Shown here one piece after another: positions 1,733 to 21,574 of a stretch of DNA of 21,696 bases. Location: positions 1 to 21,696 of the IMG/VR virus record IMGVR_UViG_3300017987_002545. One strand, written 5' to 3'. Every line of letters starts with the position of its first letter. Position 1 is the first letter of the stretch. This DNA is from a virus. The position numbers and the translations under genes were made by a program. The notes beneath the pieces are model-generated. The model ran no database searches, was not told where the DNA came from, and saw nothing but the letters and a program-made list of their open reading frames with translations.

Positions 1733-1793
1733 CCACTCCCCACTCCCCACTCCCCACTACCCACTACCCACTACCCACTACCCACTCCCCACC
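1733..1793. repeat. Heptanucleotide array, CCCCACT/CCCACTA units
   Basis: About eight tandem 7-bp units (CCCCACT then CCCACTA on the plus strand) lie between the convergent ends of the membrane-protein gene and the zinc-ribbon gene. On the minus strand the units read AGTGGGG and AGTGGGT. The zinc-ribbon gene ends inside the array: its last residues GVGSG and its TAG stop are encoded by repeat units. Confidence 0.9.
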
Positions 1794-2115
1794 GCGGGCA
1801 CCACCGGCCGCGGTCCGTCAGGACGTCGAGCAGGCTCGGCCGATCGTCGCGGCCGTCGAACGTGAGGCACCCCCGACCGGTGAACCGCTCGCAGTATTGG
1901 CACCGGGCCAGGCAGCGGCCGGTCTCGAAGACGCACCGGGTCGATTCGTTGTTGGAGGCCAGCTCCCAAATCGCGTTGACCAGCTCCGCGGCGGCCGGGG
2001 TCTCCTGTTCGGATCGCGGGCCCGGGCAGTTCCGCCGGACCTGTGTGGGGTGGGTCCAGCCGCATCGCGGACAGGTCCAGGAGCCATCGTCGTTTTGTTC
2101 GAGCGGGCAGTCCAT
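1771..2115 (-). CDS. Small zinc-ribbon protein, last gene of the late cluster
   Basis: 114 aa. The start is the ATG at 2115, which shares a base with the TGA of the upstream gene (TGATG) and so implies translational coupling; a longer in-frame ATG at 2172 would overlap the neighbour by 19 codons. Residues 12-17 read WTCPRCGW, half of a zinc ribbon. A second cluster near residues 77-87 (RCQYCERFTGRGC) could complete the site. The C-terminus is WCPRWGVGSG, the last five residues encoded by heptad repeats. Its role is unknown. A small Cys-rich phage protein at a tail-module end could be structural or act on host factors. No known family is claimed. Confidence 0.65.
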   Translation of the reverse strand: MDCPLEQNDDGSWTCPRCGWTHPTQVRRNCPGPRSEQETPAAAELVNAIWELASNNESTRCVFETGRCLARCQYCERFTGRGCLTFDGRDDRPSLLDVLTDRGRWCPRWGVGSG

Positions 2116-3014
2116 CAATGCACCGCGGAGATCGTGACCGTACAGTTGAGGAAGTTCACCGGGACATTGCACACTAGACCATCGAGGTCGCAGTCGGTTT
2201 GGCCGACGAGTTGGGCGCGCCAGTGATCGAGGCGGACGCGCTCGGCTTCGTCGTTATAGCCAAACAGCGTGACCCAGACCTCGTTACCGGTCGATGGCCA
2301 CGAGGGCCCGACCCAGTCGGTCCATTGGAAATGCAACAGGATCTCGCTGATCGGCCAGGGCAGCAACTCGCAGACGAAGGGGGGATCGAAGACATATTGC
2401 CAATACCAGTTCTCTTCGTACGAACCGGGTGTCATCACGCCGGCGTAGTCGGTGATGTAGCCGCCCGACAGGCCCGGGCAGTCGACGCAATTGAAGGTGA
2501 CCTCGTACTGGTCAAACGGCTCGCCATCGTGGCAGGCCCGGGTGACGTCGAGGTACAGCCGATAGGCTCCATTCTCGTCGGCCGTTTGCCAGCGGATGCG
2601 GACCTCGCCAGTCGGCGAGACGTACGGGGCCGACAATGCGTATTCGGGCCACGGGCTGATGTCGATCAGGGCGTGATCCCAGCTCCCGACCTCGATCCAC
2701 TCGGCGGCGTCGAAGTCGTACAAGTAGACCGTGATCGACTTGCCCGCTTCGGCTTCGTATCGGCCGGCCGCGCGGACCATGTTCGGCGTGCAGCCTGCAC
2801 CCAACTGGAAAGTGACGTAACAGTCCAGGCCGCCTGCGCCGGGCTGCACCTCCAGGTAGCCGTACAGATGGCCATGCAACGACTCAAAGGTCCCGTCGAC
2901 GATGTTCCCGGCCGCGAGACTGACCGCGGTTGCGTCGGACCAACTACAGATATGGTCGCACGTGAGCGGCTCGCAACAGACCACGCACGGCAGGAATCGC
3001 CAGGGGGCCGTCAT
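2115..3014 (-). CDS. Cys-rich putative tail-tip/virion protein
   Basis: 299 aa, start overlapping the upstream stop (TGATG at 3014). The N-terminus has a dense Cys cluster (LPCVVCCEPLTCDHICSW, residues about 8-25). The rest is rich in Tyr, Trp, Asp and Gly with beta-type patterns (ITVYLYDFDAAEWIEVGSW; EVRIRWQTADENGAYRLYLD), suggesting beta-sandwich modules. Further Cys residues recur in the middle (FNCVDCPG) and near the end (TDCDLDGLVC), so disulfides or metal sites are likely. It follows the tail-hub gene in a coupled group of three. By position it is a tail-tip, fibre or receptor-binding component. No family is recognised by sequence. Confidence 0.65.
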   Translation of the reverse strand: MTAPWRFLPCVVCCEPLTCDHICSWSDATAVSLAAGNIVDGTFESLHGHLYGYLEVQPGAGGLDCYVTFQLGAGCTPNMVRAAGRYEAEAGKSITVYLYDFDAAEWIEVGSWDHALIDISPWPEYALSAPYVSPTGEVRIRWQTADENGAYRLYLDVTRACHDGEPFDQYEVTFNCVDCPGLSGGYITDYAGVMTPGSYEENWYWQYVFDPPFVCELLPWPISEILLHFQWTDWVGPSWPSTGNEVWVTLFGYNDEAERVRLDHWRAQLVGQTDCDLDGLVCNVPVNFLNCTVTISAVH

Positions 3015-3493
3015 CAGCAGGGTGCCTCCGTGACGACGAGGCGGCCGTTCTGGACGTCGTAGACGAACCCGATCCGGCTGGCCGAGTCGAGCGACCCGCC
3101 GGCCGACAAGAAGCGGTCGGTGACCGTGACGGTCTTCGAGTCGCCGTGGATCGTGACCGACGCCTCGGCCGTGCCGTCAAAGCTCAGGGCCTCGTCGAGC
3201 GTCCCTTCATACCACGGGGCACCGCCGCGGGTCACCTCCCAGACGTGGCTCGCGTCGTCGGGCATCCTGCGCGATCGGGCCGAAACCCGCTCGCCTTTCA
3301 GGCCCCAATGGCAGCCCATCAGGTCGCGGACCTCGTACTCGATCGACTCGTCGGCGACGTAGTCCGCGCCGTCCCAATACATGCGGTACGCCGCGGCGGT
3401 CCCGCCGGCGTCGAGCTGCTCGGTCAGTTCAAAGAGCGGCTCCCGTTCCGGCGGATCTTTGCGGGGTCGGGCGAGGATGGGGGTTTCATTCAT
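3014..3493 (-). CDS. Small putative tail protein
   Basis: 159 aa. The ATG at 3493 is chosen because the in-frame extension to 3628 would be translated heptad repeat. The ATG is preceded by a T6 run and GGG from the array edge, a weak ribosome binding site. The sequence has an N-terminal Pro/Arg/Glu-rich piece and then a mixed beta region (AAYRMYWDGADYVADESIEY; SVTIHGDSKTVTVTDRF). It is translationally coupled to the next gene by TGATG. A role in the tail tip or as an adaptor for the following Cys-rich protein is inferred from order only. Confidence 0.6.
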   Translation of the reverse strand: MNETPILARPRKDPPEREPLFELTEQLDAGGTAAAYRMYWDGADYVADESIEYEVRDLMGCHWGLKGERVSARSRRMPDDASHVWEVTRGGAPWYEGTLDEALSFDGTAEASVTIHGDSKTVTVTDRFLSAGGSLDSASRIGFVYDVQNGRLVVTEAPC

Positions 3494-3501
3494 GGCAAAA
3501 A

Positions 3502-3592
3502 ATCCCAATGACCAATGACCAATGATCAATGACCAATGACCAATGATCAATGACCAATGACCAATGATCAATGACCAATGACCAATGACCAA
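3502..3592. repeat. Heptanucleotide array, CCAATGA units
   Basis: About twelve 7-bp units, CCAATGA with a CAATGAT variant, fill most of the 124-bp gap between the tail-hub gene stop and the next start. The left edge has the TCCCAA motif that marks the start-proximal side in other arrays. Unlike most TTGGTCA-family arrays, no substantial inverted second half is present. The frame is open, so a spurious extension of repeated IGHWSL heptapeptides appears upstream of the real start. Confidence 0.92.
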
Positions 3593-3617
3593 AGGCCCTT
3601 GGAATTTGGGGTGTCCT

Positions 3618-5657
3618 TCATTGTGCAAACCCCGTGCTGATAATCGTCTGCGGCTTCTCGCCGCCCATCCACGCGACCTGGGTAATCGGGGCCTGGATCT
3701 GGTGCGTGTCGCCGGCCTCCTCGATCACGGTCAAAATGTGGCCCAACAGGGGCCCCCACGGCACGAGCCCCTTGATCACCAACACGCCCCGCATCCGGCC
3801 GGCGAAGTATCGGGCGATCGCCCCGGCCATGACGGCGGCCAGGCGGTCCACGTCGTTTCGCAACACGCGGCCGGTATCGCCCGACGTGAGGACTTCTTTA
3901 ATGGCCCCCTTGTCGACCTCCCACGGCTCGGGGTCGACGTCGACGATCGTCCGGGCGGCCAGGAACCAGAACTCGGCGTCGGGGACCTCGATGTCGAGCG
4001 TCCCATCGGTGGGCTTCGCGCCGCCGGGGATTTCTAATTCGAGCCGGAGCCGCTGGTCGGACTCGAAGGCGATCGTGGCGACGAGTCGGTCGTAGTCGAA
4101 AACCGGTGGGTTCTCCGTGCCCTTGGCGGGGAACCAGTGGTTCATCGCCAGCCGGTGATTTGGGGAGGCGTTCAGGCAGACGCCCCAGTCGGTCTGGGCG
4201 GCCGAGACGCCGATCCGCGCGGCCTCGCAGGGCTGGGAATGGTCGACCTCGGGATCGTGAAAGTTGCCCCAGGCCTCGGCCAGGATCCAGCACGCGGCCG
4301 GGCGGAACTCCGGCTGGTAGCCGTCGACGTTGTTATCCACCGCCGGGTCCACCGAGTAATCGAAGCCCTCCCGCAACGGGAGCCACGACAGGGTCGACCG
4401 GATGTCGAGCTGGTGCTGGCCGGTCAGGAGGGGGTCGTGCTGGCCGGCGGCGTCGATGTACGGGGCGGCCGCGCCGTCCTGGTGGGTCCAATCGTCCGGC
4501 GCGCCGAAGTATTGGTACACCGGTCTAAAATGATCGCGGCGTCGGACGGCGTCGTGCTCGGCGTCGGGGTCGGCCGCGTTGCCCGTCCCGTCTTTGTAGT
4601 CGGCCAGCAGGTCGTCGTGCCACTTGGGGACGAGGCTCCCGGCGAGCTTCGCGTCCCAATACTCAGGGCCCGCCAGCGAGCAGCACACCACGGCCCGCTT
4701 GCCCAACACGCGGATGCGGCCGTAGCGGTGGTCCTCGGTGGCGACGACCCGCGTTTGCAGGTTGTCGCGGGTCTCGCCCGACCGGACCGCCACCGTGTTC
4801 GGATTCTTGGGCAGCGTGACGTTGGCGAAACAGAATTCCCGGGCCGACAACGCGAACACGTGGACCTCGAATCCGGTGCCCTCGTGGTGGACGATTTTGT
4901 AGTCCACCCCCAGCCGCGGCGGGATGAGCTGGGCCAGGACCTGGTCGATCGTCTGGGTCGTCCCCAGCCGGATGTTTTCGGAAAACCCCGCCAGCAGGTC
5001 GGCCTGGCCGCCGATCGTCCAGCTCGGGCCGCCGTCGGCCGTCTCGTCGACGAACCGGTCCAGGACGTACTCGAGGTAATCCAGATGGGTCCAGGTGTCC
5101 TCGCCGCCGTACAGATAGACGCCGTCGTGCTTCTCCGCCGACCGGTTGCCGACGATCATGTTCCGCTGGTCGCGATCGTTGATACTGGGGACCCAGCCCA
5201 GCTTCCGCCTTAGCGCGCCGTCCCACCAGTACGAGTTCGACATCGCGATCTTGCGTAGGATGTTGGTCGGGCCGTAGGCGGTCCAGGATTGGGCGCCCAT
5301 CCGGCCGCCCTCCGAGCCGTAGACGTTGCGGGACTCGCCGGCGATCCGGCCGATCCAGACGGGCTGCAAGCCCTGGTCGCAGACGATCCGGAGTTGGACC
5401 CACCACCCCGCGCCCGTGGCCCAGGAGCCGCGGGCCGAGTAGTCGGCCTCCCACGGCTGCTTGACCGCGGGGCCGTACCGGCGGCGGAACTGGCACCGCC
5501 CCAGGTCGTGGCCGCCCGTGGCAAGCTGGGCCGACACGAGCTCCAGGTCCGGCGCGATCCGCCACGTGTCGCCCCAGAGCCGCTTGATTTCGAGGATCGG
5601 CGGATAGGTCGACTTGGGGAACGCTTCGGTCGTGGGGCCGATGATGGTGCAGGGCAT
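3618..5657 (-). CDS. Large tail protein, central hub-like
   Basis: 679 aa, start ATG at 5657 with GGAG 9 bases upstream. It sits downstream of tape measure and distal tail genes, where the tail hub of siphophages lies. Features include a region with RDNLQTRVVATEDHRYGRIR (about residues 300-325), several Trp-rich stretches (WGDTWRIAPDLE; SWTAYGPTN) and a C-terminal end QAPITQVAWMGGEKPQTIIS, which resembles the closing beta-strands of hub-type proteins. A basic segment near residue 370 reads AVRRRDHF. No peptidase motif is evident. The hub assignment rests on position, size and general beta-rich character. A fibre or receptor-binding scaffold is the alternative. Confidence 0.65.
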   Translation of the reverse strand: MPCTIIGPTTEAFPKSTYPPILEIKRLWGDTWRIAPDLELVSAQLATGGHDLGRCQFRRRYGPAVKQPWEADYSARGSWATGAGWWVQLRIVCDQGLQPVWIGRIAGESRNVYGSEGGRMGAQSWTAYGPTNILRKIAMSNSYWWDGALRRKLGWVPSINDRDQRNMIVGNRSAEKHDGVYLYGGEDTWTHLDYLEYVLDRFVDETADGGPSWTIGGQADLLAGFSENIRLGTTQTIDQVLAQLIPPRLGVDYKIVHHEGTGFEVHVFALSAREFCFANVTLPKNPNTVAVRSGETRDNLQTRVVATEDHRYGRIRVLGKRAVVCCSLAGPEYWDAKLAGSLVPKWHDDLLADYKDGTGNAADPDAEHDAVRRRDHFRPVYQYFGAPDDWTHQDGAAAPYIDAAGQHDPLLTGQHQLDIRSTLSWLPLREGFDYSVDPAVDNNVDGYQPEFRPAACWILAEAWGNFHDPEVDHSQPCEAARIGVSAAQTDWGVCLNASPNHRLAMNHWFPAKGTENPPVFDYDRLVATIAFESDQRLRLELEIPGGAKPTDGTLDIEVPDAEFWFLAARTIVDVDPEPWEVDKGAIKEVLTSGDTGRVLRNDVDRLAAVMAGAIARYFAGRMRGVLVIKGLVPWGPLLGHILTVIEEAGDTHQIQAPITQVAWMGGEKPQTIISTGFAQ

Positions 5658-5671
5658 ACAAATACTCCAAG

Positions 5672-5799
5672 CACCAATGACCAATGACCAAAGGGGCCTC
5701 CGTCATTGGTCATTGGTCATTGGTGTTTGGTCATTGGTCATTGGTGTTTGGTCATTGGTCATTGGTGTTTGGTCATTGGTCATTCGTGTTTGGTCATTC
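5672..5799. repeat. Composite heptad array with 17-bp inverted repeat
   Basis: CACCAATGACCAATGAC (5672-5688) is the exact inverse complement of 5709-5725 within a long right arm of TTGGTCA units with GTTTGGTCA variants. The loop contains GGGGCC. The array fills the gap between the LamG tail gene and the hub gene. The TGA stop of the LamG gene (5796-5794) is itself part of the last repeat unit. Confidence 0.92.
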
Positions 5800-7776
5800 C
5801 TCGGGCAGCGGGCCGGCCCAGCGTTGGGCGTCCAGGGGTGCGGTCGGGCCGGCGGCGTCGGCCGTGGCCGTCTTGATCGTCGAGTCCTCGCTGTAGACCG
5901 TGTCGCCGCGGCGGGTTTGCAGCCGGACCTTGACCGTGGTCCCGTTGGCCTGCTCGGGCAGTGCGTAGTCCAAGACGGCCAGGCCGGCGGGCAGGTCGAC
6001 CGTGACGTCCGGGGTGTCTTCCGGCGGGTCGCCGCCGTCGGTGGTGTAGCCGATCGACCAGTGGTCGGCCCGTAGGGCGCCCGACTCCCAATAAAAGCCG
6101 ACGACGCGGACGACGCCCGCGGCGTCCAGCTCCAGCCGCCAGTCGGTCGGGCCTTGCGGCGGGCCGGTCGTCTCCTCGCCGCCGGCCAGGTCCAACCGCA
6201 AGAAGGTCTCGCCGTGCTCGCCCAGCGGCAAGAATCCGGAGTCGATGACGCCGTTGAAGTAGGATACCGAGAGGTACCAGGTGCCGTCGGCGTAGACGTC
6301 GGCCGGCGTGTGGGGCAGGGTCGCGTTGGTTGCAAAGGGCGCGTCATCTTCGGCCGGCGGGGCGGAGTTGTCTCGATAAAATCTGTACTCAACCGAGTTG
6401 AAAATTCTGTAAAGCCCCCGGCCGTCGTGGTAGAACCGGCCGCGAAAGGTCGACGGGTCGGCGGTCCGCGATCGGACCCGGCGTCGGGCCTGGGCCACAC
6501 GCCGGGCCAGCGGCCGGCCGGTCACGACGGGCACCAACGGCACCTGCCAAAACGGCCGGACGATCCGCGACCGGGGCCGGCGGATGGGCTGCCGGCGGCG
6601 GGTCGACCGGAGGATCAGCGGCTGGTAGGTTTCCTCTTCCTCTTCCTCTTCGACGTAGGGCGGCCAGGTCAGCCAGGACCGCGGCCGGCGGATGGGCTGC
6701 CGGCGGCGGGCCGACCGGACGACGGCGATCGGATACTGGTATTCCTCGGTCCCCCAGGTCAGCTCGTTGTCCGCCTCGTTGACGTTGGCCAATTGGAACT
6801 TGTCCCAATTGGCCGAGCGGTCCGTGTCGCTTACGCGGACCTCGTCGATGAGGCCGTCGAAGTAGTTGCCCCAAACTTGTTGTGAGCCGACCCGGAAGTC
6901 GCCCGCCTTGTCGGCGATCCCCGCCGTGTAGGCTTTGGGGTTGTCCGCGCCGTTGGCGTCCAGGGCCCCGTCGACATAGATCCGGATGTCCGTGTCGTCG
7001 TACACTGCGCGAACGTGGTGCCAGGAGCCGTCGTCGACCGTGTTGTCCGCGCCGAGCGCCCGGGTATTGGCCGCGCCGTCGCCGGACAGGTTGCACGCGA
7101 TCGAGTCCTCGGAGTGGTCGAACCAGAGGATGTACTGGCGGTCGCCGGTGTCGCTCTTGTACTTCGAGATGATCCCGGCGTCGGCCGTCGCCGACTCGAA
7201 CTTGACCCACGCCTCCAGGGTCAGCTCCTGGTCGGCACCCGAAATATCGGTCGAGCCGCCGTCGGCGTGGGAGAGGTACTGCGAGGAGCCCGACTCCAGG
7301 TCGATGCACTTGCCGATCTTGCCGGACGCCGAATAGCTTGGCCCGCCGTTCGCGGTGAGCGTCTCGCCGTTGCCGGACGAATCGGCCAACGAGTCCTCGA
7401 AATGCCAGACCGCCTTGTAGCCGGCATCCCAGGCGTTGGCCGCGTCGGACTGGTCGCCGCCGTCGTAACCGTAGTAGAGCCAGAGCTTATTCTGATCGCC
7501 GGCCGGCGCGGCGTACAAGTCGGCGATCTTGCACCAGATCTCGGCGTTGGCGAAGCTGGCGCCCTCGCTGTACGTTTGCTCTTCGTACGCGCACTCCGTC
7601 CCGTTGTGGTCGAAGATGCGGTACCGCTTCGAGGCGATCTTGTCTTTGTCGATCGCCTGGGTGTCGGTGAGCTTCAAGAGGCACGGGAAGTCCGCCAGGT
7701 TGCCGTCGATGTTCGCTGCTTGGACGGCAATCTCGATCCGAAAGGGATAGTCGGCGGCATCCCAGCTCTTGGTCAT
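5794..7776 (-). CDS. DUF2341/LamG-domain tail fibre-like protein
   Basis: 660 aa. The ATG at 7776 overlaps the upstream stop (ATGA). Residues about 5-115 match the DUF2341 pattern (FRIEIAVQ; KLWLYYGYD; VWHFEDSLADSSGNGE). Residues about 115-330 form a LamG/concanavalin-like jelly roll (LTLEAWVKFES; DGSWHHVRAVYDDTDIRIYV; LIDEVRVSD), a fold that binds glycans or shapes adhesins. A linker at about 345-430 has two copies of RRRQPIRRPRS separated by a run of seven Glu. The C-terminal 230 residues are beta-rich with two further likely domains. The protein is probably an adhesin or fibre at the tail tip. The stop codon lies in a heptad array. Family calls come from motif recognition, without a profile search. 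Confidence 0.78.
   Translation of the reverse strand: MTKSWDAADYPFRIEIAVQAANIDGNLADFPCLLKLTDTQAIDKDKIASKRYRIFDHNGTECAYEEQTYSEGASFANAEIWCKIADLYAAPAGDQNKLWLYYGYDGGDQSDAANAWDAGYKAVWHFEDSLADSSGNGETLTANGGPSYSASGKIGKCIDLESGSSQYLSHADGGSTDISGADQELTLEAWVKFESATADAGIISKYKSDTGDRQYILWFDHSEDSIACNLSGDGAANTRALGADNTVDDGSWHHVRAVYDDTDIRIYVDGALDANGADNPKAYTAGIADKAGDFRVGSQQVWGNYFDGLIDEVRVSDTDRSANWDKFQLANVNEADNELTWGTEEYQYPIAVVRSARRRQPIRRPRSWLTWPPYVEEEEEEETYQPLILRSTRRRQPIRRPRSRIVRPFWQVPLVPVVTGRPLARRVAQARRRVRSRTADPSTFRGRFYHDGRGLYRIFNSVEYRFYRDNSAPPAEDDAPFATNATLPHTPADVYADGTWYLSVSYFNGVIDSGFLPLGEHGETFLRLDLAGGEETTGPPQGPTDWRLELDAAGVVRVVGFYWESGALRADHWSIGYTTDGGDPPEDTPDVTVDLPAGLAVLDYALPEQANGTTVKVRLQTRRGDTVYSEDSTIKTATADAAGPTAPLDAQRWAGPLPEE
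6575..6718. repeat. Two 36-bp direct copies inside the LamG tail gene
   Basis: A 36-bp segment at 6575-6610 recurs at 6683-6718 with one mismatch, exactly 108 bp apart, so the frame is kept. It encodes the Arg-rich motif RSARRRQPIRRPRS and its Thr variant, at residues of about 350-365 and 386-401. Between the copies is a run of TTC/CTC on the plus strand that encodes the poly-Glu block. Confidence 0.85.
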
Positions 7777-8117
7777 GCGGTCAGCTCGTCGAGTTTGGCC
7801 TGGACGGCGGCGGCGCCGTGGTCGGCGATTGCACGGCCCGCCGCGACCATGCACGCCGTGGCGGCCTTCAGGTCGTTCCGCTCGGCGATGTATTTCGCCA
7901 GCCGGTTGTCCAACAGGACCCAGGCCGGATCGTCGGGATTGGCGGCGGCCCGGGCCTGGACCTCGGCGATCACCTCGGCGTAGGTCGTGGCCAGGCCGGC
8001 CAGGACGTTGTCGGCCGCGGAGGTCGCCTGGTTGGCTTGATCGTACCGCTGCCGGCTCTTCACGATGTCGGCGGCGGCGTTGAGCAACGCCTGTTCAATC
8101 TGGCAAAACGTCGGCAT
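7773..8117 (-). CDS. Small helical virion-associated protein
   Basis: 114 aa, ATG at 8117 with a good GAGGAG 8 bases upstream. It is almost entirely alpha-helical by composition, Ala-rich with Gln, Asp and Glu (ATTYAEVIAEVQARAAANPD; KYIAERNDLKAATACMVAAG). It is coupled by ATGA overlap to the LamG tail protein, which suggests that it is a chaperone, trimerisation partner or assembly factor for it. No family is recognised. Confidence 0.62.
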   Translation of the reverse strand: MPTFCQIEQALLNAAADIVKSRQRYDQANQATSAADNVLAGLATTYAEVIAEVQARAAANPDDPAWVLLDNRLAKYIAERNDLKAATACMVAAGRAIADHGAAAVQAKLDELTA

Positions 8118-8137
8118 GGTCAAACTCCTCTTATTGC

Positions 8138-8175
8138 TACCCACGAACCACTACCCACTGCCCGCTCCCCACTAC
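8138..8175. repeat. Degenerate heptad array, CCCACTA family
   Basis: A decayed array of CCCACTA-like units with variants (CCCACGA, CCCGCTC) between two virion genes. The TAG stop of the upstream gene (8174-8172) is read from the repeat on the minus strand (GTAGTGGGG). The ribosome binding site of the downstream gene lies outside the array. Confidence 0.75.
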
Positions 8176-8654
8176 TCCTCCCACTCGACGTACGCTTCGA
8201 GATTGGCGGCCGTGGCCTCGCCGGGCGCGGCCTCGATGGCGAGGCATTCTTTGCGGCCCCAGGTCGGGCCCTCGCCGGGTCCCCATTCCAGGACCAGGCC
8301 GCTGCGGCCGTTGATCGAGCCGCCGCCCAGCGTGTCGGTCCCCATGGTGGTGGGCTCGACGGTGTAGTTTTTGCCCATGGCGGCCACGAGCGAAGCCTGC
8401 GAGGTGGGGTCCGACTTGCCGATCGTGTTGACGTTGACCGCGGTGCTGGTCCCGTCGGCCGTGATGTCGGTCTTCCGCAGCCGGATCGAGACTTGCAGGT
8501 CCTGTGCGGCACCGCCGCCGCCGCCGATGAACAGCTTCCGCAGCCGGCCGCGGTGGCCCAGCGTGTCGGCGTACTTCAGGCCCAGGATGGTCTTGAAGGT
8601 GTTCGCGACGGCCCCGGTCGCGATCCCCTCGACTTTGCAATGGTAAATCGACAT
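8172..8654 (-). CDS. Putative virion protein, 160 aa
   Basis: The start ATG at 8654 has AGGAG 8 bases upstream. The protein is Gly/Thr-rich with alternating hydrophobic pattern (DLQVSIRLRKTDITADGTST) and a Gly run (IGGGGGAAQ) near residue 45. It ends YVEWEE, with its TAG inside a heptad array. Located between two tail-module genes, it may be a beta-rich tail-tip or decoration protein. No family is recognised. Confidence 0.6.
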   Translation of the reverse strand: MSIYHCKVEGIATGAVANTFKTILGLKYADTLGHRGRLRKLFIGGGGGAAQDLQVSIRLRKTDITADGTSTAVNVNTIGKSDPTSQASLVAAMGKNYTVEPTTMGTDTLGGGSINGRSGLVLEWGPGEGPTWGRKECLAIEAAPGEATAANLEAYVEWEE

Positions 8655-9335: not shown

Positions 9336-9336
9336 G

Positions 9337-9476
9337 GGAGTGGTGAGTGGGGAGTGGAAAATCCCAAATCCCAATGACCAATGACCAAATGGGCCGTTGG
9401 TCATTGGTCATTGGTCATTGGACATTGGTCATTGGACATTGGTCATTGGACATTGGTCATTGGTCATTGGTCATTT
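9337..9476. repeat. Composite heptad array with perfect 18-bp hairpin
   Basis: On the plus strand GTGGGGA-type units and CCCAAAT units lead into CCAATGACCAATGACCAA (9371-9388). An 8-base loop ATGGGCCG follows, then the exact inverse TTGGTCATTGGTCATTGG (9397-9414) and further TTGGTCA and TTGGACA units. The TAA of the FnIII-like gene (9477-9475) directly abuts the array. The 139-bp gap before the next start is filled entirely by it. Confidence 0.93.
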
Positions 9477-10383: not shown

Positions 10384-10440
10384 AGTGGTTAGTGGTTAGT
10401 GGGTAGTGGTTAGTGGGTAGTGGGTAGTGGGTAGTGGTCA
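10384..10440. repeat. Heptad array, GTGGTTA/GTGGGTA units
   Basis: Eight tandem 7-bp units (GTGGTTA, GTGGGTA) fill the whole 55-bp gap between tape measure and next gene. On the coding strand the units read CCACTAC, the reverse of the orientation seen in the other arrays of this family. The TGA of the tape-measure gene (10440-10438) is formed at the array edge. Confidence 0.92.
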
Positions 10441-11898
10441 GCGGTCGACGTTGGGCGGCACGAGGGTCGGGCCGCGGCCGGCGTCCCGGAGCGTCTCGGC
10501 GGCGGCGTTGAGATTCTTGGCTGCCTCAATCAAGCCACCGTCGCCGCCGGCGGGCCCCCCGCCGCCGACGAACCGGTGGCCCGTGCCGGCCAGCTCGGCC
10601 ACTTCGCGCCGGGTCCGCGGGTCGGCGATGTCGTCGTGGGCCTGGCGCAACCACCATTCATCGCCGCCGAAGTATCGTTGGAGGCCGGCGTATCGGCGGG
10701 TGAGGCCGATCCCGAACTCGCCGCGGCCTTCGCGCCGCGCCTGGGTGGCAAACTCGTCCAGGACGGTGTCTGCCAGGTTCCCCATCTGCCCGAGGGTTTC
10801 TTTGGACAGTTCTTCCTGGGCCTTGGCGATCCGGGCCCGCTGGGAGGCATAGATGGTCGGATCGCTTTCCGAGAGCTTCAGTTGTGCGGCAACGCGGTCC
10901 TCCTGTTGTGCCGCTTGCACTTCGGCGAAGGCCTTCCCGTACCGCGGCATATTTGTTCGCAGGATGTCGAACGCCTCGCGACCTTGGGCGCGGCCAAACC
11001 ACTCTTTCGCGTCCTCCTCGGACATGCCACCGGTAATCCGTTCGACCTGTCCGAGCGTCGTCGCAAGGTCTTGCCCCTTGAAGATGCCCTTTTGCCGCAG
11101 TGTGCGCATGAGTTGGGCCAGATAGGTCCCGCCCATTTCGGCGCCGCCTTTTCCGGTGGCGACGACGGCAGTCGCCGCGAGCACCTCTTCGTCGGTTATG
11201 CCCATGGCCGCGGCGGAGCTACCGCTCCGGGCCGCCGCTTCCAACAGGGCGTCGGCGGTGGCCGGCGAGTAAAGCGACGCGCCGAACGCCTTGGACGCCA
11301 GCGCCCGCATGGTGCCCGTTTCGCCCTTGCCCATCGTGGTCTGGAGCGTCGCGGCGGCCTTGGCCATCACCGCGGGATCGGTGACGAGCCGTTTCGACGA
11401 CAACTGGGTGAAGAGGTCCTCGAACTCACTGGCCCCGGCCGACTCCAACTGGAAGACGAGCTTGGCGGCCGATTCCAAGGAGTCGCCGCCGCCCGCGCCG
11501 TAGACCTTTCGGGCGCGGGCGGTCAACGCCTGGAACGCCTCGGGCGTTTTCGCCAGTTGCGCGAGCTCGGACATGCCGCCCTCGGCCTGGCCCCATTGCT
11601 GGGTGGCCTCTTGACGGGCCTCGCGCATGTCGTTGAACAGCCCGATGACTTGCGTAATCGCGGCTCCGATCCCCAGGAAACTCGCGGCATAGCTGCGGAT
11701 CTGCGCGACCGCCCCCGCCCCAAACGCCGTCCGCCCGGCCGTGCCGGCGGATCGCATCTTCGCGCCGGCTGCCCCGGCCTGCATCCCCGTGTTCTTCAGC
11801 CCGTTTTGCAACGTCGTCTGCTGGACGATCAGCTTCTGCATCCCGGCCCACGCCCGGGCCTCGTTCGCGGTCATCTCGATTTGGATGCGTGGGGCCAT
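10438..11898 (-). CDS. Tail tape measure-like protein
   Basis: 486 aa, ATG at 11898. The N-terminal part is Ala/Gly/Met-rich and helical, with a hydrophobic stretch (ASFLGIGAAITQVIGLF, residues about 72-90) then long Glu/Gln/Ala/Lys helices (EEVLAATAVVATGKGGAEMG; LSKETLGQMGNLADTVLDEF). This is the composition of tape measure proteins, which set tail length inside the tube and enter the host membrane at injection. A Gly-rich patch (GHRFVGGGGPAGGDGG) sits near the C-terminus. Its place directly after the frameshifted chaperone gene supports the call. At about 0.15 nm per residue it predicts a tail of roughly 70 nm, short for the family. Confidence 0.78.
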   Translation of the reverse strand: MAPRIQIEMTANEARAWAGMQKLIVQQTTLQNGLKNTGMQAGAAGAKMRSAGTAGRTAFGAGAVAQIRSYAASFLGIGAAITQVIGLFNDMREARQEATQQWGQAEGGMSELAQLAKTPEAFQALTARARKVYGAGGGDSLESAAKLVFQLESAGASEFEDLFTQLSSKRLVTDPAVMAKAAATLQTTMGKGETGTMRALASKAFGASLYSPATADALLEAAARSGSSAAAMGITDEEVLAATAVVATGKGGAEMGGTYLAQLMRTLRQKGIFKGQDLATTLGQVERITGGMSEEDAKEWFGRAQGREAFDILRTNMPRYGKAFAEVQAAQQEDRVAAQLKLSESDPTIYASQRARIAKAQEELSKETLGQMGNLADTVLDEFATQARREGRGEFGIGLTRRYAGLQRYFGGDEWWLRQAHDDIADPRTRREVAELAGTGHRFVGGGGPAGGDGGLIEAAKNLNAAAETLRDAGRGPTLVPPNVDR

Positions 11899-11912
11899 GA
11901 TCGTTTATCCGT

Positions 11913-12817
11913 TCATCCGATGCGAAACTGTTGCACCACGACCGGCGGGTCGTCCCCCTTGCCTGCGCTCAGGGCCCAGAGGTCGGCGAGCGTGGGTCGG
12001 TAGCCGGGGTCGAGGCCTCGGGCCCAGCGTCGGTAGCCGAGCCATCGGGCATCGAGCGGGCCTTTTTTTTTATCCAGCCCACAACCGTCGGCCAGTCGAT
12101 CAGGGCCTTGAGGATCTCGGCCGTCGCCCGGTCGTCAAACAGGCCCAGCAACGCGACCTCCGCCTTGCCGACGCGATAGTTCGTCGCGAGGGCGTACAGG
12201 GCCGCATCGTTGAGGCCGGCGAAGTCGAACTCGATCGTCACCGTCTTGCCCGGGTCGACGTCGTCGCCGACCTGGTCGTCAGGGCCCGGGGAGGCCGCCG
12301 CGAACGTATCCCACCAGGCGGTGGCAATGTCCCAGAGCCGGCGATATTTGGGCACGACGCCGCCCTGGGTCCACTCGCCGGCGGCGTCCATGCCCACGGT
12401 CTGCGGGAGGTTGTGGTGCCAGGTCAGCGCGTCGCCCTCGGCATTCAGGGCCCGGGCGATCGGCACGAGCCAGTCGTTTCCATCGGCCAGCGTCACGAAG
12501 TGGCCTGGCAACACATTCTCGCGGATCAGGTCGGGCGGCCCGACCGGCTGATCGTTGTGCCGGCCGACCCAGGCCGTTTTGCCGCCGGGCAGCCCGGGGA
12601 TTTTGAGCCACGTCTGCCGGTCCGGCCAGAAACCCAGCAGGTGTTCTTTGAGCCGGTCGGGGTCGGCGACGACCACGCCGTGATCGCCGTCGGGTCCGCG
12701 CTGGACCTCGCGGGGGACCAGCCGGGAACCGAACGCATAGCCCAGGCCCAGGCCGGCCAGGTCCGGGACCTTGATCGCGCGGGTGGCATCCGGGATGTAG
12801 TAGAGTAGTCCGGGCAT
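11913..12817 (-). CDS. Tail-assembly chaperone, -1 frameshift product (gpGT-like)
   Basis: The frame-0 protein starts at the ATG at 12817 (GGGAG 9 bases upstream, from the array edge) and stops at 11969, 282 aa. At codons 249-252 the coding strand has nine A then GG (12071-12061), reading ATA AAA AAA AAG, which contains an A AAA AAG slippery heptamer. A -1 slip continues for 49 residues (GPLDARWLGYRRWARGLDPG, then YRPTLADLWALSAGKGDDPP, ending VVVQQFRIG) to TGA at 11915-11913. That is 15 bp before the tape-measure start. The fusion is 301 aa. The frame-0 tail is Pro/Ser/Thr low complexity, while the -1 tail looks like folded protein. Location between tube and tape measure matches lambda G/GT. 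Ribosomal or transcriptional slippage or an assembly error in the homopolymer could each explain it. Confidence 0.75.
11969..12817 (-). CDS. Tail-assembly chaperone, frame-0 product (gpG-like)
   Basis: 282 aa form that terminates without frameshifting. Residues 1-252 are shared with the longer form. They include MPGLLYYIPDATRAIKVPD at the start, Trp-rich central segments (KYRRLWDIATAWWDTFAAAS) and a helical domain (ALLGLFDDRATAEILKALID) before the slippery A-run. The last 30 residues after the A-run are Pro/Ser/Ala/Asp-rich. Lambda gpG binds tape measure and is absent from virions; the same is inferred here from location. The protein is longer than typical gpG (about 140 aa), so an additional N-terminal domain is likely. 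Confidence 0.65.
   Translation of the reverse strand: MPGLLYYIPDATRAIKVPDLAGLGLGYAFGSRLVPREVQRGPDGDHGVVVADPDRLKEHLLGFWPDRQTWLKIPGLPGGKTAWVGRHNDQPVGPPDLIRENVLPGHFVTLADGNDWLVPIARALNAEGDALTWHHNLPQTVGMDAAGEWTQGGVVPKYRRLWDIATAWWDTFAAASPGPDDQVGDDVDPGKTVTIEFDFAGLNDAALYALATNYRVGKAEVALLGLFDDRATAEILKALIDWPTVVGWIKKKARSMPDGSATDAGPEASTPATDPRSPTSGP
12061..12071 (-). other. Programmed frameshift slippery site (A9-GG)
   Basis: On the coding strand nine consecutive A and then GG. It holds a canonical A AAA AAG heptamer in the correct phase for -1 slippage. The A9 run is also long enough for polymerase slippage. GC-rich sequence downstream (GGCCCGCTCGATGCCCGATG) could form a stimulatory structure. It is the longest A-run noticed in an otherwise very GC-rich coding cluster. 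Confidence 0.75.
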
Positions 12818-12826
12818 TATCGAAAC

Positions 12827-12894
12827 TCCCAAATCTCAATGACCAATGACCAATGACCAATGCGTCCCTTGGTCATTGGTGCTTGGTCATTCCC
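12827..12894. repeat. Composite heptad array with inverted arms
   Basis: Plus-strand order is CCCAAAT, CTCAATGA, then repeated CCAATGA, a short spacer (TGCGTCCC) and TTGGTCATTGGTGCTTGGTC. The arms can pair over about 13 bp. It fills the gap between the tail-tube gene stop (TAG at 12897-12895) and the chaperone start at 12817. The start-proximal CTCCCAAA edge supplies the GGGAG used as ribosome binding site. Confidence 0.88.
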
Positions 12895-13815: not shown

Positions 13816-13829
13816 GGTGGATTCCTTAA

Positions 13830-13883
13830 AATCTCAAGTCCCAAGGACCAATGATCAAAGGGGCCGATCATCGGGCCTTGGTT
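13830..13883. repeat. Decayed composite heptad array
   Basis: A short, diverged copy of the composite element, with TCTCAAGTCCCAAGGACC, ATGATC, a GGGGCC-containing loop and GATCAT, then CCTTGG. The ATGATC/GATCAT arms pair around AAAGGGGCC. The TAA of the upstream gene (13884-13882) abuts CCAAGG of the array. The order matches the intact copies, so it looks like an old unit of the same kind. Confidence 0.65.
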
Positions 13884-14493
13884 AGACTTCGGAGTCGTAA
13901 ATGCCGACCAGCTTGATTTGATCCGTGGTGGTCTCGCCGCAGCTCACGAGGATCTTGCCCACGGGGTCGCCGGTCAACGGGTTGGCGGCGCCCGTGTCGT
14001 ACACCCACGACCAGGCCTCGTTGGCGGTCAGCTCGCGGCCGAGGATCGAGACGTCGCCGTTGGTCAGGAACTCGATGTGGGCCCGCTTCTTGCAGTGCGC
14101 GACGATCATCTTGACGAGGTCGCCGTCGAAGTCGACGTCGTACTCTTCCTGGACGCCGACGACGACGGCGGTCTCCGCCGCGGGCAGGTCGTCGCCCGTG
14201 CCCGCGTCGATCGAGACGGCCGTCCCGTCGACCAGGGTCACGGTCATGCCATACCGGCAGCCGCCCGACCAGTAGACGTCGACGGTGTCGGCGTCGGTGA
14301 TCCCGTGCTCGGCGGACGACATCGTGATAATGCCGGTGTCGGCGTCGGTCCGGGTGGTCAGCGAGCCGGCCAGGCCGGCGGCCGGGGTCGGGGTCTGCGC
14401 GGGGATCGCCGCGACGGCCGACCGCGAGGTGACCGACGTCACGGAGAGCCCGGCGATCGAGATCGTCGATTGAATTTGAGCGGTCAGGGTCAT
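13882..14493 (-). CDS. Virion protein of unknown role, 203 aa
   Basis: Start ATG at 14493, 13 bp after the preceding gene. The N-terminal 40 residues are Ser/Thr/Ala-rich with repeated beta strands. Then comes a motif-like block SLTTRTDADTGIITMSSAEH and GGCRYGMTVTLVDG, then GTGDDLPAAETAVVV (residues about 45-110), a pattern of Asp/Gly turns seen in beta-sandwich virion proteins. A Cys pair (HCKK; SCGE) lies in the second half. Between tail-completion and tail-tube genes, it may be a head-tail connector, tail-tube accessory or decoration protein. No family is recognised. Confidence 0.6.
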   Translation of the reverse strand: MTLTAQIQSTISIAGLSVTSVTSRSAVAAIPAQTPTPAAGLAGSLTTRTDADTGIITMSSAEHGITDADTVDVYWSGGCRYGMTVTLVDGTAVSIDAGTGDDLPAAETAVVVGVQEEYDVDFDGDLVKMIVAHCKKRAHIEFLTNGDVSILGRELTANEAWSWVYDTGAANPLTGDPVGKILVSCGETTTDQIKLVGIYDSEV

Positions 14494-15543: not shown

Positions 15544-15734
15544 TTCTTGGCGACCTCCAGACCGCGGACCCGGGCGTCGATCTTCTCGACGTCACGCTCC
15601 AGGAACTTCACCCGGGTGTTGATCGACGAGGCCCACCACACGAGCCCCACCGTCTGGACCACGATCGCCAAGACCAGCGTCCCGGCGTGGACCGTCAAAT
15701 ACTTTTTGATCCCGTTGGATTCGGTGCTGGTCAT
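15540..15734 (-). CDS. 64-aa single-TM coiled-coil protein
   Basis: ATG at 15734. A longer in-frame ATG at 15764 would read repeat sequence (SSGEWGVGS). Residues about 13-38 form a hydrophobic helix (LTVHAGTLVLAIVVQTVGLV, then WW). The last 23 residues are charged with heptad spacing (NTRVKFLERDVEKIDARVRG), a short coiled coil. It sits between the head-tail joining and neck genes, an unusual place for a membrane protein. It is coupled to the next gene by ATGA. Holin-like, spanin-like or assembly-anchor roles are possible and cannot be separated by sequence. The heptad array upstream gives GGGGAG near the start codon. Confidence 0.62.
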   Translation of the reverse strand: MTSTESNGIKKYLTVHAGTLVLAIVVQTVGLVWWASSINTRVKFLERDVEKIDARVRGLEVAKK

Positions 15735-15736
15735 GC

Positions 15737-15795
15737 TCCCCACTCCCCACTCCCCACTACTCACTACCCACTACTCACTACCCACTCCCCACTAC
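15737..15795. repeat. Heptad array, CCCCACT/CCCACTA/CTCACTA units
   Basis: About eight 7-bp units between the head-tail joining gene and the small membrane gene. The TAG stop of the upstream gene (15794-15792) is made from the repeat (GTAGTGGGG on the coding strand). The last units give AGTGGGGAGC just before the ATG, placing GGAG 8 bases from the start codon. The array thus appears to supply both stop and ribosome binding site. Confidence 0.92.
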
Positions 15796-16163
15796 TTCCG
15801 ATACCCAGGCCGACTCCGCTCGACGGAGCCGATCCGGACCAGGCCCAGCCGCCAGGCGGCGGTCGAGACCGTGCTGATCGACTCGACCGAATACTCGACG
15901 GAGTCGATCGTCACGGTGGCCCGTTCGGACGGCTCGGCGACGCCGCCGTAGTCGGCGTCGTCCGCGTCCGAGAGGACCTTGACGGCCCGGACCCGCCGCT
16001 GGTGCCGGCCGTCGGTGGCCGGGTCCTCTTCCGACCGCTCCCGTTCGACGCACCCGGTCAGCGCCACCGGGTCGCCGCCGGCCGGGGTGTAGGTGATCGA
16101 CTCCCCGTGCTGGAAGAACACGTCGGCCATGGCGACGGCGAAGTCAGCGTCGAAGCGTGACAT
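15792..16163 (-). CDS. Head-tail joining protein, FII-like
   Basis: 123 aa, ATG at 16163; the longer frame to 16241 is translated repeat. The N-terminus is SRFDADFAVAMADVFFQHGE then SITYTPAGGDPVALTGCVER. This fits the pattern F...F...GE.ITYTPAGG.P..L.G.V of gpFII-type head-tail attachment proteins (PF05354-like), which form the interface ring between connector and tail. The C-terminal part (ERATVTIDSVEYSVESISTV) is beta-rich and ends with a basic tail. Its place after the decoration gene and before the neck gene matches lambda order. The family call is by pattern only. Confidence 0.68.
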   Translation of the reverse strand: MSRFDADFAVAMADVFFQHGESITYTPAGGDPVALTGCVERERSEEDPATDGRHQRRVRAVKVLSDADDADYGGVAEPSERATVTIDSVEYSVESISTVSTAAWRLGLVRIGSVERSRPGYRK

Positions 16164-16176
16164 CAAAACACTCGCA

Positions 16177-16246
16177 AAATCCCAATTCCCAATGACCAAT
16201 GACCAAGGCCCTTTGGTCCTTGGTCCTTGGTCATTGGTCATTGGAC
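16177..16246. repeat. Composite heptad array with perfect 20-bp hairpin
   Basis: Arms at 16189-16208 (CCAATGACCAATGACCAAGG) and 16225-16244 (CCTTGGTCATTGGTCATTGG) are exactly complementary over 20 bp. They enclose a 16-base loop that itself contains TTTGGTCCTTGG units. The start-proximal side carries AAAATCCCAATTCCC, as in the sister arrays. Confidence 0.95.
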
Positions 16247-16265
16247 CTTCGGGCGTGTGGCCTCC

Positions 16266-17231: not shown

Positions 17232-17265
17232 GGTTCGTGTCTCCGGGAGAAAAGAGGATTTTGTT

Positions 17266-17304
17266 CAGGGTTTGAGGGTTCGGGGTTCGGGGTTCGGGCG
17301 GGTT
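17266..17304. repeat. Heptad array, GGGTTCG units
   Basis: Three exact GGGTTCG units with flanking GGGTTTGA and GGCGGGTT variants lie between the capsid gene stop (TAA at 17305-17303) and the decoration gene start. It is a third heptad family in the window. Confidence 0.85.
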
Positions 17305-19600
17305 ACTGCCCGGCGCCGGTGCTCTTGTACCAGGGGCGGAAGTCGAGGAACGCGGCCCCGATGTCGTGATTGATGTCCCACCCCAGGCCCCATTGGCCTT
17401 GCGTCAGGATGAAACTCCGCATCTGCGGCGACCGGCCGGTGCCCATCCGGTAGGCCACGCGGAGGCCCTTCGTGCCGCCGGCGGTCAGGAACCAGTTGGT
17501 ATCGAGGCCGGTCCGCACGGTCTTGGTCCGCGGGTCCTTCACGCCGATCGCGCCGATCCGGTCGTCGATGACGGTCCGCAGCCCCTCTTGCGCGAGGAGG
17601 TTGAGCTGGGCGTACCACGGATCGCTGGAGTCGGCGAAGAGTTTGGCCAGGGCCCCGGCGGCGGTCAGCTCGCGGGCGGTCCAGTCCAGGGCGGCGGGGA
17701 CGATCAGCCACTTCGGCCGCAGGTTCAGGGCCTCGCCGGGATCCGTCGTCGTGCGTCCCAGCCGCTGCTTGACCATCGCGCTGATCCCCGCTTTCAACGT
17801 GGCCGACGCCAGTGCGCCGGTCCCCAGGTTGGCGTGGCCGCCGGCCGTCGTGACGGCGGTCGCGTTGAAGACCGCGCCGGAGTCGGCGACCAGGTCGGGA
17901 TTTTCGAGCATGATGCTGTAGACCAGGTCGGGCCGGAGTCGCCGGGCCGCCTTGCCCATGGCGACGGGCATCCCGAGCAAGGCGCCCAACCGATCGTTCA
18001 GGATGTCCTGCTCGTCCATGACGAACTTCTTGGCGTAGCGCGCGATCTTGTAGGTCTCGTGCGAGTCGGAGACCGTGGCGTGGTTGGCCGTGCCGCCGGA
18101 CGGGAGCCGGTCGAGTGTGGCGCTCTCGTCGATCGAGATGTCTTCTTGCTGGAGGAAGTTGGGGACGTCCTCCTCGTCACACCAGCCGATCGTCGTGTCG
18201 CCGATCGTCTCCCAGCCCTCGACCAGCCGGGCGTAGACGTTCGTGCCGAAGACGTGGCTGAGGGTCCCGCCGGAGACCGCCGCGCGGATCGCCTCGCCCC
18301 GGCTGTGATACCGGCGGCCCGTGTCGATCAACGCGCACTCGCGGCAGAGGTCCACGGCCGAGAGGTCGCGGAGCCGGTCGCCCCGATCGGCGTCCTGCTC
18401 GGTGAGCATGTCGCCCCGCCGCTGGCCGGTGTACTCGCGGCAAAAGCGGTGCTTCGTCGGGTCCTGGCCGTAGGCCGCCAGCATCCCGGCGGCCAGGCTG
18501 CGGGCGTTCACGTCGGCGTCGTGCGACCGGCTGTGCTGCGCGGGCGCGCGGCCGGCCGAGCCGGATCGGGTCGCGCGGACCCCGGCGAGGAACTCCCGCG
18601 AGGCCCGGGTCTCGTCCCAGCCCTCGTCCACCGCCCGGGTGATCAGCTCGGCGGGGACGTCGTCGCCGCCCAGCTCGCGCATCCGGGCGGCTCGCGTCCG
18701 CTCCTCGGCCTGGGCCTCGGCCCGGATCCGGGCCTCGTCGGCCGGCGGCGCCGGATTCGGCGGGTCGGCCGGCGGGTCGGCCGGCGGCGGAGCGGATCGC
18801 TGGGCCGGCTTGCTCGGGTCCTCCGGGTCGACGCCCAGGGCCTCCAGGCCCGCGCGGACCATCAATCGCGAGGTCTCGCTGTCGGTCTCGCTTTCCAGGA
18901 CCTTGGCCACCTGGGCCCGGGTCCCGCTCAACAGGGCCAGGAACTGCCGGGCCTCTTCCTCGCTGGCCTCGTGTCGCAGGCCGATCGCCTCGAGGTACTT
19001 TCGGAGTCGTTCGTTCATCAGTACGGTCTCCCGTGGGGTTGTGGGCGGGTCGCCCGTTTCGCGTCGGATTTTCGCTGCCGGATCCGCGCCGATCGCAAGT
19101 AAAGAAACCTCGCGAAGTTGCCAACGAGTGCTGATCCGCAAGGTCCGGTTGCCGGCGGTGTACCTTCGGCCGGCCACCTCCTGGGTCTGGCCGGCCGGGA
19201 TGTCGACGTAGTCGAGGGACTGGTACCCGATGGACACGTCGCGGATGTGCCTGTCTCGAACCTTGCTCCAGGCCCGGTCGACCTCGGGGTCGTCCGCGGC
19301 AAAGAAAAGGCGCCCGACTACCTCCCCCGCCTCGATACGGATCGCCCGCGCCGAGCCGAAGACACTCTCAACACCCTCGCGACGGTGATCATTCAAGAGC
19401 CGCACTTCCTCGGGCAGCTCGGTGCCGTCCATCCGGAGGACCTCGTCGATCACCTCCCAGGTCTTCGGGTCCAAGACTGTGACCGGGTTTTCCGTGGCCA
19501 TCACGGTCTCGACGCTCCGGTCGGCCTCGTTGATCGACGCCGCGCGGAGGGTCATCACGGAGACGGTCAGGTCGCGCCGCATCGTTTGGTCATGGGGCAT
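17303..19600 (-). CDS. Fused prohead protease - scaffold - major capsid protein
   Basis: 765 aa, ATG at 19600, 3 bp after the portal stop. Residues about 10-180 match the HK97-type prohead protease (U35-like): His-72 in RLLNDHRR, Ser-123 in RDVSIGYQ and the EVSLLAIGADPAA closing strand (165-177). Residues about 195-340 are charged, helical and Pro-rich (scaffold-like). Residues about 360-765 look like a Mu gpT/HK97-fold capsid subunit (AKKFVMDEQDILNDRLGALL; NLRPKWLIVPAALDWTAREL; ending INHDIGAAFLDFRPWYKST). The protease would cut the scaffold during maturation. An in-frame ATG at 19018 (Met-195) has GGGAG upstream and could start a separate scaffold-capsid form. A fusion of all three is rarer than separate genes. 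Confidence 0.82.
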   Translation of the reverse strand: MPHDQTMRRDLTVSVMTLRAASINEADRSVETVMATENPVTVLDPKTWEVIDEVLRMDGTELPEEVRLLNDHRREGVESVFGSARAIRIEAGEVVGRLFFAADDPEVDRAWSKVRDRHIRDVSIGYQSLDYVDIPAGQTQEVAGRRYTAGNRTLRISTRWQLREVSLLAIGADPAAKIRRETGDPPTTPRETVLMNERLRKYLEAIGLRHEASEEEARQFLALLSGTRAQVAKVLESETDSETSRLMVRAGLEALGVDPEDPSKPAQRSAPPPADPPADPPNPAPPADEARIRAEAQAEERTRAARMRELGGDDVPAELITRAVDEGWDETRASREFLAGVRATRSGSAGRAPAQHSRSHDADVNARSLAAGMLAAYGQDPTKHRFCREYTGQRRGDMLTEQDADRGDRLRDLSAVDLCRECALIDTGRRYHSRGEAIRAAVSGGTLSHVFGTNVYARLVEGWETIGDTTIGWCDEEDVPNFLQQEDISIDESATLDRLPSGGTANHATVSDSHETYKIARYAKKFVMDEQDILNDRLGALLGMPVAMGKAARRLRPDLVYSIMLENPDLVADSGAVFNATAVTTAGGHANLGTGALASATLKAGISAMVKQRLGRTTTDPGEALNLRPKWLIVPAALDWTARELTAAGALAKLFADSSDPWYAQLNLLAQEGLRTVIDDRIGAIGVKDPRTKTVRTGLDTNWFLTAGGTKGLRVAYRMGTGRSPQMRSFILTQGQWGLGWDINHDIGAAFLDFRPWYKSTGAGQ

Positions 19601-19603
19601 GGG

Positions 19604-21142: not shown

Positions 21143-21153
21143 GGGGGGAGTGC

Positions 21154-21414
21154 TCAGGTGGTGGGGCGGATGTACGTGGTCTTGGTCCGCTGGACGCCGA
21201 CCGCGGCGGCCCGGGATTTGTTGATGTCGGCGATCAAGGCGTCGATCGCCGCGCGGTCCCACGTCAGGCCCAGGCCGTCGCCGGCGTCCGTGTCGGGCAT
21301 CCCGGCCAAGAGCATCTTGGCGGAGCGGAGCTTTACGAGGGCCGTGGCGGCGTCGCCCGATTCCCAGGCGGCCACGGCCTCGGTGCATTTGGTGGCGATC
21401 AGGGCGGCAGACAT
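21154..21414 (-). CDS. Small gpW-like head-tail connector protein
   Basis: 86 aa, ATG at 21414 with GGGGG just upstream; an ATG at 21444 is in frame but lacks a better signal. It is mainly helical (MSAALIATKCTEAVAAWESG; ALVKLRSAKMLLAG) with a turn and a last helix (WDRAAIDALIADINKSRAAA). It lies immediately before the portal, the place of lambda gpW and of DUF6148-type joining proteins. Lambda W is 68 aa. It would plug the head-tail interface after DNA packaging. The match is based on size, helix pattern and synteny. Confidence 0.68.
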   Translation of the reverse strand: MSAALIATKCTEAVAAWESGDAATALVKLRSAKMLLAGMPDTDAGDGLGLTWDRAAIDALIADINKSRAAAVGVQRTKTTYIRPTT

Positions 21415-21457
21415 ACCCCCAGGGTCACCGGGGGCGCGGCCCAAAAGCGAGAGGGTG

Positions 21458-21476
21458 GTTTACAGGGGCTGTAAAC
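21458..21476. other. Perfect 8-bp inverted repeat upstream of the gpW-like gene
   Basis: GTTTACAG and CTGTAAAC, 3 bases apart (GGG), form an exact palindrome 44-62 bp upstream of the 21414 start. It lies outside the heptad array, in the leader of the gpW-like gene. The size fits a dimeric regulator half-site pair, or a short hairpin. No promoter hexamers are clear next to it. Confidence 0.5.
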
Positions 21477-21486
21477 GTGGGGAGAA

Positions 21487-21574
21487 AATCCCAAATCCCA
21501 AATCCCAAATCCCAAATCCCAATGACCAAGGTGGTCATTGGTCATTGGTCATTGGTCATTGGTCATTGGTCATT
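21487..21574. repeat. Composite heptad array, CCCAAAT then CCAATGACC and TTGGTCA units
   Basis: On the plus strand: four CCCAAAT units, then CCAATGACCAAGG, then about six GGTCATT units. The arms CCAATGACCA and TGGTCATTGG pair over 10 bp around AGG. The array begins at the TAA (21575-21573) of the upstream gene and ends about 70 bp before the gpW-like start. It is the clearest copy of the CCCAAAT block. Confidence 0.93.

Follow-up and report, generated by a model that had tools for sequence, protein, structure and literature searches.

What kind of process fills nearly every wide gene junction of a virus operon with tandem repeats of a 7-nt unit, and where do the repeats come from? The DNA that raises this question (hereafter the window) is a 21,696-bp IMG/VR virus record with a G+C content of 67%. 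It carries a leftward morphogenesis operon that includes a portal gene, a protease-major capsid fusion (phrog_4523; 17303-19600, minus strand), a head decoration gene, Hc1 and a putative tape measure gene (10438-11898, minus strand), the latter named by position and length with no family hit. An independent gene call combined with homology gives 22 complete leftward genes with 21 gaps between them, the gene starts being fixed by homology and a codon-usage caller. A 171-codon rightward ORF (1175-1690, plus strand) with a hydrophobic N-terminal stretch converges with the operon across its last array. Relatives were sought with the capsid fusion, which matches named GenBank phages at only about 27%, and nine IMG/VR contigs, eight with a nearly complete capsid gene and one partial, at 38-78%; a portal search among viral contigs returned no relatives. 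From gpW to g11, the proteins of contigs L008, L010 and L011 are mostly 57-91% identical to those of the window, the tape measure being only about 33-36% identical. Between gpW and g14, L008 and L010 have the same genes in the same order, save for a small extra ORF in L010. Another related virus contig, L446, has a g9 that is 42% identical to that of the window.

The period-7 signal is far above chance. At a threshold of 11, period-7 runs take up 647 bp of the window, whereas 60 dinucleotide shuffles averaged 0.3 bp and never exceeded 18 bp. The corresponding figure is 0 bp for periods 5, 8 and 9 and 21 bp for period 6. Of 667 bp in period-7 runs, just 25 bp fall inside genes. Among the gaps of the leftward operon, 12 measure 54-158 nt and the 10 others are at most 13 nt or overlapping. 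Eleven of the wide gaps (54-139 nt) separate complete genes, and the twelfth (about 158 nt) is bordered by a partial gene at the right edge. Period 7 is the best autocorrelation period in 10 of the 11, and the right-edge gap is clearly of period 7 too; two gaps (8118-8171 and 13816-13881) hold degenerate heptads only. The preliminary description, made from the sequence alone, had every wide junction filled by heptads; this holds for 11 of the 12 gaps of at least 50 nt and fails for 11899-11968. Its further claim that several 7-bp families obey one placement rule that is not due to chance is supported, and the same rule is found in cells. As in STRR and long heptanucleotide SSRs, the arrays consist of tandem 7-nt units longer than expected by chance and lie between genes.

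The exceptional gap (11899-11968, minus strand; best period 8) lies upstream of the tape measure gene. The -1 frame of g11 is open through it, with a protein sequence conserved in three phages (PTLADLWALSAGKGDDPPVVVQQFRIG, PSIADLAALSLGLGDRPPVVVDQYHFHR and PTIADLAALSLGLGDRPPVIVEQYHFHR), and an AAAAAAG slip heptamer in A-AAA-AAG phase (12062-12068, minus strand) is conserved in L008 and L010. The region 11899-12134 (minus strand) thus probably directs a programmed -1 frameshift that adds a C-terminal extension to g11, like the G/GT tail assembly chaperones. Because the conserved frame and the in-phase, conserved slip site make 11899-11968 probably coding, effectively all real wide gaps are heptad-filled.

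Seven of these gaps hold palindromes, in which heptad arms surround a GC-rich centre. Read on the coding strand, the TTGGTCA-type gaps have a common order: (AATGACC)n, a GGCC-rich centre, (TTGGTCA)n, GGGATTT units and often TTTT. The arms are AATGACC-AATGACC-AAGCACC-AATGACC-AAG on one side of the centre and CTTGGTCATTGGGATTTGGTCATTGGTCATT on the other. These gaps fold as long hairpins, with MFE reaching about -52 to -59 kcal/mol and z-scores of -2 to -6, so that the TTGGTCA/CCCAAAT gaps, previously taken for simple arrays, are mostly pairs of inverted arrays. Rfam gave no match to the element. In the paired positions 13 of 22 pairs are invariant and one changed on both sides; since the arms hardly vary, covariation is uninformative about selection for pairing.

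Element A, between the partial upstream gene and the gpW-like gene (21486-21574, minus strand), comprises (AATGACC)6, one unit of the 3' arm and (GGGATTT)5, with a fold of E=-58.8 (z=-4.6) and a covariance-model score of 48.3 bits at 21508-21574. Element B, in the decoration-Hc1 gap (16177-16249, minus strand), reaches -52.5 kcal/mol (z=-5.9) and 47.5 bits. Element C, in the g9-g10 gap (13828-13890), is a degenerate heptad palindrome (z=-3.2; period 7, autocorrelation 0.44; 22.4 bits). Element D, in the g10-g11 gap (12837-12891, minus strand; 5' arm AATGACCAAGCACCAATGACCAAGGGA; z=-6.1; 60.8 bits), is the window copy closest to those found in cells. Element E, in the g14-g15 gap (9336-9475, minus strand; 50.6 bits), combines a long AATGACC arm and a two-unit 3' arm with GGGATTT and CCACTCC units. 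A 21-nt supra-unit is found both in element F, in the g18-g19 gap (5661-5798; z=-5.1; 55.6 bits), and in element G, in the g19-g20 gap (3505-3618, minus strand; z=-3.7; 19.8 bits). Element F has a long AATGACC arm and a 3' arm, GGTGCTTGG, that is the asymmetric arm in reverse orientation; element G consists mainly of a TTGGTCA/TTGATCA arm.

The five non-palindromic arrays are plain heptads, and the CCCACTA and GGGTTCG arrays show no such fold. They comprise a GGGTTCG array without hairpin in the capsid-decoration gap (17263-17298), a TAGTGGG/CCCACTA array in the Hc1-g6 gap (15736-15793), whose first unit includes the stop codon TAG, an ACCCACT/AGTGGGT array with higher-order periods of 14 and 21 nt in the tape measure-g13 gap (10384-10437), degenerate TAGTGGG heptads in the g16-g17 gap (8137-8175), and a CCCACTA/CCCCACT array where the last leftward gene ends (1733-1792). 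The latter had been placed after that gene; the array is indeed present, and it contains the gene's stop codon. Several arrays start at or within a stop codon, which at several junctions forms part of the first unit. A stop/start cassette (TGA, ATG and TAG within the units) was considered as a general rule; it fits AATGACC, AGTGAGC and TAGTGGG, and was dropped because GGGTTCG and GGGATTT contain neither.

Among L008, L010 and L011 the gene order is kept and the arrays are not. At the portal-capsid junction the window has 3 nt, L008 has TGAGCAG units and L010 has TGACCAA units. The decoration-Hc1 palindrome is present in the window only, with none in L008, L010 or L011. The Hc1-g6 units are TAGTGGG in the window and AGTGAGC in both L008 and L010; the tape measure-g13 gap holds ACCCACT in the window, an AATGACG palindrome in L008 and AGTGAGC in L010. 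Heptads occur in all three phages at Hc1-g6, g10-g11 and tape measure-g13, and presence and absence alternate at the other junctions, a sign of rapid turnover. L008 and L010 have in common an 81-bp element, 90% identical between the two contigs, which occupies the tape measure-g13 gap of L008 and lies downstream of g14 in L010. Judged by these comparisons, the arrays are dispensable at their junctions, since relatives with the same gene order have no array or another unit there. The preliminary description had named absence of arrays at the same junctions in close relatives as a refuting condition, and because this is what many junctions show, a junction-specific function is not supported. As to copy number between isolates, also raised there, three short arrays, the only ones comparable, have the same length in the near-identical contigs L010, L011 and L015, and L008 and L010 have Hc1-g6 arrays of unequal length. 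More distant phage relatives have few or no period-7 arrays, and L446 carries five copies of the window's element between genes (1789-8543).

Two further features of these contigs may be recorded. A second heptad palindrome family (AATGACGAATGACGAAATTCAAATGAAGAATGACC...) occupies differing junctions in L008 (14584-14663 and 16276-16355) and L010 (13065-13144); searched with one string from L008/L010, it was found in none of 382 sampled Planctomycetota genomes. In L010 (2827-2890) and L008 (6985-7061), the portal stop codon and the apparent capsid start both lie inside a heptad array, which appears to encode the capsid N-terminus (MTNDQ... and MSSEQ..., respectively).

The cellular counterpart of the element is a dispersed palindrome of 75-145 bp in two Planctomycetota genomes (G202 and G226), with arms AATGACCAAGCACCAATGACCAA and TTGGTCATTGGGATTTGGTCATT and a conserved GCA/GAT mismatch that the window elements have in common with it. 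A covariance model (R1) built solely from 18 copies in these two genomes matches all seven window elements, five of them at 47-61 bits, and gives matches in phages L008, L010/L011, L141, L145 and L446. Its E-values are rough, being inflated by low-complexity arms, and a better yardstick is provided by 80 control loci that all contain TTGGTCA x3, many of them cyanobacterial. Only two of the 80 exceed 50 bits (one Planctomycetota locus and one from a Gemmatimonadetes MAG), and a few cyanobacterial loci match weakly, the best being an Oscillatoria locus at 34 bits. By sequence, the window elements are of the same family as the cellular palindromes. The unit TTGGTCA is presumably that of STRR2, and the proposed link to STRR stands as far as the unit is concerned; beyond it, TTGGTCA x3 occurs in many phyla (it is common in cyanobacteria and found also in Bacteroidota, Verrucomicrobiota, Planctomycetota and others), and the window's composite form is matched in Planctomycetota genomes. 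In a sample of 59 genomes from this phylum, only the centre genome itself has TTGGTCA x3. A few Planctomycetota genomes contain the 3'-arm string GGTCATTGGGATTT in multiple copies, many single matches there being chance protein-coding ones. Any match to the model was found in 13 of 61 genomes in the order of G202, four of which have at least 33 matches with both strands counted, so that the distribution is patchy and multicopy; once the both-strand counts are halved, G202, G226 and G403 hold about 20-30 copies apiece.

The placement of the cellular copies follows that of the arrays in the window. None of 34 copies lies inside a called gene, and 22 codirectional copies lie closer to the preceding stop codon (median 13 nt) than to the start codon that follows (48 nt; p=0.0005); the genes of these MAG stretches come from a simple caller, and the stretches of G202, G226 and G029 were mostly picked around element copies, so that densities differ from genome averages and placement statistics are unaffected. 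Equal frequency of arrays inside cellular coding sequence, which would speak against intergenic placement, was not observed: 2-22% of period-7 array bases are coding compared with 83-87% of the genome, whereas coding sequence makes up 70-100% of period-6/9 arrays. Other intergenic heptad families occur in G202 and G226 as well, several of them palindromic and CCCCACT among them. Further intergenic palindromes in their stretches (L368-L400) are built on the heptads AATGCCT, AAAATGG and AGCATCC, or are not heptad-based (CCTCTCCCTCCGGGAGAGG, GTAGGGTGGGTCAAGCG...). Capsid relatives in Planctomycetota are distant, at best 32% in the phylum sample and 24-33% in G202 and G226. We found no pair of occupied and empty sites with clean boundaries or a target duplication, and the copy flanks show no obvious duplication.

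On balance we lean towards the reading that the gaps of the operon were colonised by the intergenic heptad vocabulary of a probable planctomycete host lineage. Against this reading stand the distant capsid relatives, the failure to find clean empty-site pairs, the absence of the second family's string from the 382 genomes and the unchanged short arrays of the near-identical contigs. New copies would be brought in by some copying route, whether host copies recombine with the phage or a transposase acts in trans; thereafter the 7-nt units would grow and shrink through replication slippage and arm-to-arm template switching, slippage alone being needed for the five non-palindromic arrays. Purifying selection would clear copies from genes and ribosome-binding sites, leaving those just after stop codons. 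Since 7 nt is no multiple of three and shifts the frame, heptads would be tolerated only between genes, and exclusion from genes is already predicted from the frame disruption caused by 7-nt changes. We thus infer that copies passed between host and phage, that units slipped and that in-gene copies were selected against. The hairpins, once transcribed, may alter mRNA stability or coupling, and a function specific to each junction is unneeded.

Several other explanations have to be weighed against this one. An excess of 7-nt repeats in bacteria has been noted since 2007, the sole explanation so far being a guess based on the polymerase footprint; Mrazek reportedly proposed in that year that a polymerase preference for a 7-nt step causes heptad repeats. 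In-place slippage, with such a step growing microsatellites in any non-coding gap without element or function, seems to us a rather unlikely account. It is true that heptanucleotides outnumber all other long repeats in many bacteria (PMC4679880; PMC4692102), the CCCACTA and GGGTTCG arrays lack a palindrome, and higher-order periods of 14, 21 and 28 nt suggest local amplification, but slippage leaves unexplained the inverted arms and ordered composite common to seven gaps, as well as the conserved GCA/GAT mismatch and the model matches across phages and cells. Under junction-specific control, the gaps would hold intercistronic terminators, attenuators or hairpins that stabilise mRNA, and these would tune the stoichiometry of the structural proteins. 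This would suit the strong hairpins in seven gaps, the position of cellular copies just after stop codons and the suggestion that intergenic heptad hairpins of cyanobacteria affect transcript stability or coupling (PMC2670836). We nevertheless judge it quite improbable: orientation to transcription is 9:7 in cells, terminator-like sites in the window (13) are not above shuffles (12.3) with 0 of 13 in heptad gaps, covariation is slight, and the element is missing from the corresponding junctions of relatives. On the orientation and the site counts, the element was rejected as an intrinsic terminator.

A REP-like element mobilised in trans by a Y1 (HUH) transposase, with the mismatched-bubble hairpin as the recognised single strand, is unlikely in our view, and its link to the transposase is weak. 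It would agree with dispersed palindromes that keep an internal mismatch, and Y1_Tnp genes per Mb are 1.21 in genomes with at least four matches (n=8) versus 0.60 in the others (n=53; p=0.007), an association that is post hoc and whose carriers may be interrelated and have larger genomes. Against it, the Y1_Tnp loci inspected in G202, G226, G029 and G001 have no element in the surrounding 1.5 kb or so, none of these loci is a RAYT flanked by copies, the flanks of 29 copies share no GTAG or CGTC tag, and many Y1_Tnp-rich genomes lack the element. That the arrays are homology handles left where a mosaic phage genome once exchanged modules strikes us as very improbable: they lie exactly at gene borders and have units in common with host DNA, yet gpW-g14 order and content match in L008 and L010 despite differing arrays. 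More tentatively, and with considerable doubt, the colonisation that we prefer may be extended to non-autonomous mobile palindromes made of 7-nt modules in several dialects, which would copy themselves into gene ends of Planctomycetota and pass between host and phage. If this were true, the 'heptad microsatellites' of many phyla would be at least partly remnants. Together, the phage operon, its relatives at graded distances and the cellular counterpart make it possible, on a small scale, to trace at individual junctions how such repeats are gained, lost and spread.

Known repeats resemble the element in part. STRR heptads are said to have been described in Calothrix and Nostoc by Mazel in 1990. 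The cyanobacterial STRR likewise have intergenic 7-nt units, including TTGGTCA, and intergenic hairpins are reported in cyanobacteria (PMC2670836), but here an ordered palindromic composite is found in phage and planctomycete, and most TTGGTCA controls fail the model. The GGGAATC/GGGGATT repeats of Xanthomonas and Nostoc are also intergenic heptads of variable length, nearer one ORF end, whereas they are G4-forming tandem arrays and not heptad palindromes (PMC4692102). The TAACTGA heptads of Beggiatoaceae form comparable short intergenic sets in unrelated phyla, but lie just upstream of starts, unlike the cellular copies here, which lie just after stops (PMC4679880). REP/BIME, the GTAG/CGTC palindromes associated with RAYT, are, like our element, palindromic, dispersed and extragenic, lie near coding ends and sometimes supply a stop codon (PMC3733652); our element differs in being longer (about 75-145 bp), in its 7-nt modular arms, and in having no noticed end tag and no adjacent RAYT. 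We found no description of heptad-armed planctomycete palindromes or of a heptad-filled phage operon in the open-access literature. The ingredients, STRR and REP/MITE-like palindromes, are thus known, and it is their combination and density that is unusual.
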